The notes below the pieces were generated by a model, which saw nothing but the letters and a program-made list of their open reading frames with translations, had not been told where the DNA came from and searched no databases. A DNA stretch of 64,000 nucleotides from positions 496,001-560,000 of the forward strand of contig OY288107.1 of assembly GCA_958431225.1 (NCBI GenBank). The letters run 5' to 3'. Positions 14,301-27,396 of this stretch are shown piece after piece. This stretch comes from an uncultured Alphaproteobacteria bacterium. GTDB lineage: Bacteria > Pseudomonadota > Alphaproteobacteria > Puniceispirillales > UBA1172. Position 1 is the stretch's first letter. Each line of letters begins with the position of its first letter. The translations under genes were made by a program, and so were the position numbers.

Positions 14301-15521
14301 CGGACGCAACACGCGGTAGATATCGGTTAAGGCATCCTCACGCGAATGGTTGCGGTCGGCGGCGAGGGTGTTGCGTAAAAACGCCCCGACATTGACATGG
14401 TCAATCGCCAGCACCCGCAGATCGTTGGTTTTGGTTTCATCCAAAATGGCAAGGGTTTCTTCCCCGAGAATATCCCCCGCTTCCGCCAGCACTAACCCGG
14501 TTTTCTTATCAACAATATCATGGGCGAGATACTGCCCCATCAGCTCCTCGTTGCTGACTAGCACCTCTTTGATGCCGCTTTCTTGTAATTTGCGCAAACT
14601 TCTTGGCGTCAATTTATCGCCTTTCTTTGCCGCCACTTTGCCGGTATCAGCATTGACCAAATCGTGATTCAACCGCGCCCCCCGCATGCTTGCATCAAAT
14701 TTCGTGCGCCAGCCTTTCTTGTCCCGCTTATATGCCACCGCCTCATAAAAATAATTGAGAATCGCCTCACGGCTCAACCCATTGACCTTAGTGCGTTCGG
14801 GTTCAATGCCTTCTTTTTCACATTCGGCGAGATATGCCTCGGAGGTTTCATCAAGCAATGCCATCAAAAACGTCGTCGCCGGCAATTTGCGTTTGCGGTC
14901 AATGCGCACATGGACGATATCTTTGGGGTCAAATTCAAAATCAAGCCACGAGCCACGATAGGGAATCACCCGTGCCGAGAACAATAATTTGCCCGAAGCA
15001 TGCGACTTTCCACGATCATTATCAAAAAACACCCCCGGCGAGCGATGCATCTGTGAGACAATCACCCGTTCGGTGCCGTTAATGACAAAAGTGCCGTTCT
15101 TGGTCATCAGGGGCATATCGCCCATATAGACCTCTTGTTCTTTGGTATCACGCAGGGAACGCATACCGGTAACGTCATCTTCTTCCCACACCACCAAACG
15201 CAAAGTCACTTTGAGGGGCGAGGCGAAATTCAAACCTCTCTGTTGGCATTCCTCAACATCATATTTGGGTTCTTCCAGCGTGTAGGATACGAATTCCAAC
15301 ACCGCTTTATCGTTGAAATCTTTAATCGGGAATACCGAACGAAACACTTCTTGCAAGCCAGAATCTTCGCGTTTTTCTGGGTCTATATCTCTTTGCAAGA
15401 ACAATTCATAGCTCGTGCGTTGAACATCAATCAGATTCGGCATCGCCGCCACTTCGGAAATTGACCCGAAATTGCGGCGAAAGCGACGACGACTATTAAG
15501 TGCGGTGATGGTGGATGCCAT
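11346..15521 (-). CDS. rpoB: DNA-directed RNA polymerase subunit beta
   Basis: 1391 residues, usual for alphaproteobacteria (E. coli 1342). The rifampicin-binding cluster reads [20 protein letters not shown] and then RLSALGPGG, with the resistance-hotspot Asp, His and Ser in the sensitive state. The catalytic/flexible regions [18 protein letters not shown] and [17 protein letters not shown] are intact. The start [19 protein letters not shown] gives a basic N-terminus. It is preceded by a 105-base gap carrying a hairpin after rplL and followed at 13 bases by rpoC. Confidence 0.98.
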
Positions 15522-26896: not shown

Positions 26897-26977
26897 TCTT
26901 GAAAAAAAATTTTTTTTCCACTATTGTTAGTAGCCTTGTGCAACATAGCCACAAGATATAGGGCAAGGCACAGCGCA

Positions 26978-27032
26978 AGAATCAGGCCAGAATCAGGACC
27001 GAATCAGGCCAGAATCAAGACAAAATCAGGCG
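26978..27032. repeat. Five tandem 11-bp repeats carrying four GANTC sites
   Basis: Units 26978-26988, 26989-26999, 27000-27010, 27011-27021 and 27022-27032, consensus AGAATCAGGCC with one to three changes each. Units 1-4 contain GAATC, a GANTC site, at exactly 11-bp intervals. The array lies in the 266-base gap upstream of the phosphate transporter gene and downstream of the winged-helix gene. There are no spacers or palindromes of CRISPR type. Confidence 0.85.
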
Positions 27033-27096
27033 CAAAACACCCGCGCCCCCGCCAAAAATAGCGGGGGATGGGGATGAATAGATGGGAACGAAACGC

Positions 27097-27396
27097 TTAG
27101 CTAATGCGCTTAAATTTCGGCGAGTAAAGCCCCGAACGTGACGTGCCGGCTTTTTTGATGAGCTTTGCCTTAATCAGATTCTGAAAAGCCCGATAAAGCG
27201 ACGGCTGCGGCATAGATGCAAGCAACGCGTGATCGCGCAACTGGCTAAGATGAATAGGCTTGTCAGTCCCCTCCGATATCAATACCATAGCCGAGATGAC
27301 ATTCCGTTCAATCTCGCTAAGATCTGCGGTGCCCATATCAGCTTCCATCTGTGTAATCAGTTTCCGTAACTGGGCGTAATATTCAATACGTGACAT
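27097..27396 (-). CDS. Small winged-helix DNA-binding-like protein, unknown role
   Basis: 99 residues, not recognised as a named family. The N-terminal helix MSRIEYYAQLRKLITQMEAD is followed by LSEIERNVISAMVLISEG, then a helix-turn-helix-like stretch (HLSQLRDHALLASMPQPSLYRAFQNL) and a wing-like end KLIKKAGTSRSGLYSPKFKRI. This layout resembles MarR-type or replication-initiator winged helices, and the basic C-terminus supports DNA binding. AAGGAA precedes the ATG, and a good promoter lies at 27431-27459. The function is inferred from fold appearance only. Confidence 0.6.
   Translation of the reverse strand: MSRIEYYAQLRKLITQMEADMGTADLSEIERNVISAMVLISEGTDKPIHLSQLRDHALLASMPQPSLYRAFQNLIKAKLIKKAGTSRSGLYSPKFKRIS

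Follow-up and report, generated by a model that had tools for sequence, protein, structure and literature searches.

Four GANTC sites follow one another at 11-bp intervals upstream of a phosphate transporter gene in an alphaproteobacterial genome. Do these sites form a methylation-sensitive switch or protein-binding platform, or are they part of a repeat that carries methylation sites along? The window, i.e., the whole 64-kb stretch of DNA analyzed here, contains five degenerate head-to-tail copies of an 11-bp unit in the spacer between a gene for a 99-aa protein and a PHO4/Pit transporter gene (pit), both encoded on the minus strand. About 145 bp separate the array from the start codon of pit, which lies downstream. 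The array copies on the plus strand are, in order, AGAATCAGGCC, AGAATCAGGAC, CGAATCAGGCC, AGAATCAAGAC, and AAAATCAGGCG. GAATC, a form of the GANTC site methylated by CcrM, starts at exactly 26979, 26990, 27001, and 27012 in copies 1–4, as the original prediction had stated. The spacing puts the sites about one helical turn apart, and the downstream gene is indeed that of a phosphate transporter, as judged from its Pfam match (Table 1). The A8T8 tract said to lie next to the array is present between the array and pit, too far away to be called adjacent. The assumed frequency of one GANTC per ca. 256 bp was too high for this DNA: the window holds 170 sites vs 211 expected from shuffles, or about one per 376 bp.

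Table 1 Features of the pit upstream spacer and its flanking genes.
Feature	Position	Strand	Basis or remark
PHO4-family (Pit-type) phosphate transporter, 499 aa	25334..26833	-	PF01384, E=2.7e-102
A8T8 tract between array and pit	26902..26917	.	About 60 bp from array
11-bp tandem array	26978..27032	.	GAATC in copies 1-4; TRF
TGATTCG copy on pit-sense strand, fits YGAKTCG	27000..27006	-	Sequence; motif from PMC7987155
Strong G+C-rich hairpin between 99-aa gene and array	27046..27067	-	Without good U tract
99-aa protein gene	27097..27396	-	Ends about 65 bp before array

TRF delimited the array to 26978–27031. At a period of 11 bp, it reported 4.9 copies with 79% matches and a score of 73; a period of 22 bp scored better (2.5 copies, 87% matches, score 87). 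Copy 1 resembles copy 3 and copy 2 resembles copy 4, which, together with the higher-scoring 22-bp unit, suggests stepwise duplication of the array. On the pit-sense strand, the copies take the form (C/T)TGATT(C/T)-N4 every 11 bp and become degenerate at one edge of the array. Three GANTC sites at 11-bp spacing arose in 1e-5 (about 1 in 100,000) of order-1 Markov randomizations of the spacer. As a repeat, therefore, the array is beyond chance, and tandem copies of a short unit in excess of chance characterize an intergenic minisatellite. The four GAATC sites descend from a single ancestral site and thus do not represent four independent events. Such a motif calls for caution, since its repetition by tandem duplication is a single event and any repeat unit brings phasing with it. 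Nowhere else in the 2.33-Mb genome do three GAATC sites occur at 11-bp spacing. A dispersed repeat family was ruled out, no further copies of the array being present in the genome.

To place the array among other repeats of the same genome, we used sampled stretches of 864 kb including the window, with coding DNA masked by a crude ORF mask. Intergenic short direct repeats were far above the randomized control at many periods. The period of 11 bp was the commonest, accounting for seven of the 21 intergenic repeats with periods of 9–16 bp; no motif was shared among the intergenic repeat units. A genome-wide regulatory period of 11 bp was rejected because, although commonest, it came with no shared motif and a small count. 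GAATC also recurs in a coding repeat (L193, 15381–15444), where it starts at 15381, 15393, 15405, 15417, 15429, and 15444, with a spacing of 12 to 15 bp. The sequence CTGATTC was in excess between genes (15 vs 7.1 expected), about half of which was due to two clusters. The second of these (L161, 10630–10675) consists of four copies of CTGATTCGC at uneven spacings of 16, 10, and 11 bp. It sits between reading frames of 451 and 289 aa, and each of its copies contains TGATTCG, which fits YGAKTCG.

We then compared the locus with other species of the genus and the order. A full-length pit orthologue (80% protein identity) was found in two of the six same-genus genomes and a fragment in a third. 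The DNA upstream of these orthologues is unrelated and has no array. The array is thus present in one lineage and absent upstream of pit in the relatives; the pit gene order differs in these same-genus genomes, so the comparison is one of upstream regions and not of an exact empty site. When the array spacer was used as a DNA query, the same-genus matches fell only inside the 99-aa gene (query positions 190–281). The 99-aa gene is kept in four of the six same-genus genomes at 59–61% identity, with other neighbors there. Its product, which has no Pfam, NCBIfam, or PDB match, is also conserved outside the genus, in a few members of the order.

Within the array, changes affected one of 25 positions of the GANTC core vs five of 30 positions outside it. 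The core was not significantly better preserved than the remaining positions (Fisher p=0.20), and selection on the GANTC sites is accordingly unsupported. Across the order, GANTC triplets at 11-bp spacing occurred in eight of 101 genomes vs about 10 for the reversed motif CTNAG, so that phased triplets were not enriched over this control, an imperfect one given its similar biases in Alphaproteobacteria (PMC3973325). An order-wide TGATTC-N5 triplet element was also considered and rejected; outside this array, it was seen in a single other genus, where the gene concerned is unrelated. In the sampled stretches of the own genome, GANTC in coding DNA was below the composition expectation (2.83 vs 3.74 per kb), and between genes it was near the expectation (3.63 vs 3.88 per kb). 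The direction of this bias agrees with that in CcrM-bearing Alphaproteobacteria (PMC3973325).

These results suggest that the array is probably a lineage-specific, near-neutral intergenic minisatellite that carries GANTC along. This reading rests on its uniqueness in the genome, its absence in relatives, the preferred period of 22 bp, the lack of significant core preservation, and the lack of triplet enrichment, and likewise on the frequency of similar intergenic repeats in the genome and the recurrence of GAATC in a coding repeat. The unconserved minisatellite that the original prediction had named as its own counter-case is, by these same observations, largely what was found. An 11-bp stretch with one GAATC would have been duplicated, the resulting 22-bp pair would then have been duplicated again, and the copies would have drifted, in what we take to be the likely order; the phasing of GANTC would be a by-product of the 11-bp unit. 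The array is like other bacterial intergenic minisatellites in its short head-to-tail unit, higher-order duplication, edge degeneracy, and restriction to one lineage, and differs in the chance presence of a CcrM site in its unit. Three points speak against the minisatellite. The array lies in the pit upstream spacer, where regulatory sites belong. The commonness of 11 bp among short intergenic periods could reflect selection for one-turn spacing. There is also the second intergenic CTGATTC cluster (L161, 10630–10673), though it is unevenly spaced.

The methylation machinery required for the proposed switch is encoded. The ccrM gene that the original prediction asked for is present (L024), its product matching Caulobacter CcrM closely along almost the entire length (6pbd, E=2.2e-131), and the adjoining reading frame presumably resembles RNase HII. 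GcrA is also encoded. Since CcrM is encoded, methylation of the four GANTC sites in the array is probable, as for GANTC sites elsewhere, and would require no special regulatory role. For the N6/N4 DNA methylase family, the 2.33-Mb genome yielded 16 matches, a large number, and some of their neighbors resemble parts of restriction systems. In a CcrM/GcrA switch, methylation timed by the cell cycle would alter how GcrA-sigma70 or another protein binds, and hence pit transcription. DNA methylation would then couple phosphate uptake to the cell cycle in an alphaproteobacterium for which searches gave no recognizable CtrA, MucR, or PhoB. Like the CcrM/GcrA promoters of Caulobacter and Brevundimonas, the array places GANTC sites upstream of a gene, and CcrM and GcrA are both encoded in the genome. 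An extended motif, YGAKTCG, has been proposed for promoters activated by GcrA (PMC7987155); one of the four GAATC sites of the array (TGATTCG) fits it, and the other three are TGATTCT. In further contrast to those promoters, the array shows no conservation, and no promoter was located: the minus strand from the array to pit gave no consensus promoter match, and inspection by eye gave no credible promoter over the array, the one candidate being a weak TATATC that lies 17 nt past the last copy. In Caulobacter and Sinorhizobium, GANTC sites are shielded by MucR against CcrM (PMC5172544). Phosphate starvation alters GANTC methylation at one MucR-bound promoter of Caulobacter (PMC5172544), which favors a link of this kind. 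The array shares clustered intergenic GANTC with such hypomethylated promoters. The genome differs in that no MucR/Ros family protein (PF05443) was found in it, the search being positive in Caulobacter as a control. With an unconserved array, no preserved core, and no triplet enrichment besides, the methylation-sensitive switch did not gain support, and we regard it as quite unlikely.

Somewhat different considerations apply to a direct-repeat binding site for an OmpR/PhoB-type regulator, which when bound would act on the pit promoter. Head-to-tail repeats of 11 bp are the layout on which response regulators of this type bind in tandem, and Pho boxes are 11-bp direct repeats of CTGTNAT-type heptamers. 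The array shares with them the period of its direct repeats and the position upstream of a gene for phosphate transport. Three OmpR-type regulators are encoded in the genome, and the second CTGATTC cluster is also in favor of such a site. Pho-box-like 11-bp repeats were also seen by eye directly upstream of pit in several relatives of the order (L011 and L014–L017), for example TGTCATAAAACTGTAAC in L011 and CTGTAATAAAAACGTAAT in L015, before the pit start codon. In L011 and L014–L016, a phoB- or phoR-like reading frame stands just before these repeats. Against a regulator site, the array heptamer CTGATTC differs from CTGTCAT/CTGTAAT, the array is not conserved in same-genus species, and a consensus promoter match is lacking as described above. 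Only three OmpR-type regulators were found, none of which exceeded the NCBIfam cut-off for PhoB or for CtrA (the CtrA model being of the Rhodobacteraceae type, judged by its name), and PhoU was not found in the genome, its positive control being detected. One of the OmpR-type regulators is odd in having an acidic Asp/Gly/Glu-rich insert within its receiver domain (L022, 1023–1725). A Pho box proper was rejected because of the wrong heptamer and the absence of a recognizable PhoB. A site for another regulator of this type is unlikely. What speaks for it, as for the CcrM/GcrA switch, is location and layout.

Alternatively, the array might have no function as DNA and be transcribed as the 3′-terminal part of the 99-aa gene transcript, e.g., as a spacer following a terminator hairpin. 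On the same strand, the array is preceded by a stable hairpin at which transcription of the 99-aa gene may end. Folding of the region is more stable than that of shuffled sequences (z -3.4), and a weak terminator-like match extends to 27028. On the other hand, the hairpin, which is outside the array, accounts for most of the stability, no U tract follows it, and no Rfam match came near the gathering score. We consider this 3′-end assignment very improbable. A structured RNA was likewise rejected, the Rfam matches being sub-threshold and to unrelated families.

A phased GANTC array was also observed in a second genus of the order, where five genomes (L148–L152) have three GANTC sites at 11-bp spacing, GAATCAAATTAGAATCAAATTAGAATC. 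It lies at about 1501–1527 (17–43 in L149), upstream of a gene for an FhaC/ShlB-like secretion protein. Phased GANTC arrays could in principle be a recurrent promoter element of the order that aligns sites sensitive to methylation along one side of the helix, with the pit and FhaC arrays as two independent examples; we hold this to be highly improbable. In the four of the five genomes that have full flanks, 25 of the 27 positions of the FhaC-upstream array were invariant vs 139 of 200 in the upstream flank and 85 of 200 in the downstream flank, and one of the two changes hits the free N of GANTC. This array is the best-conserved phased GANTC array seen in this study and a better functional candidate than the pit array.
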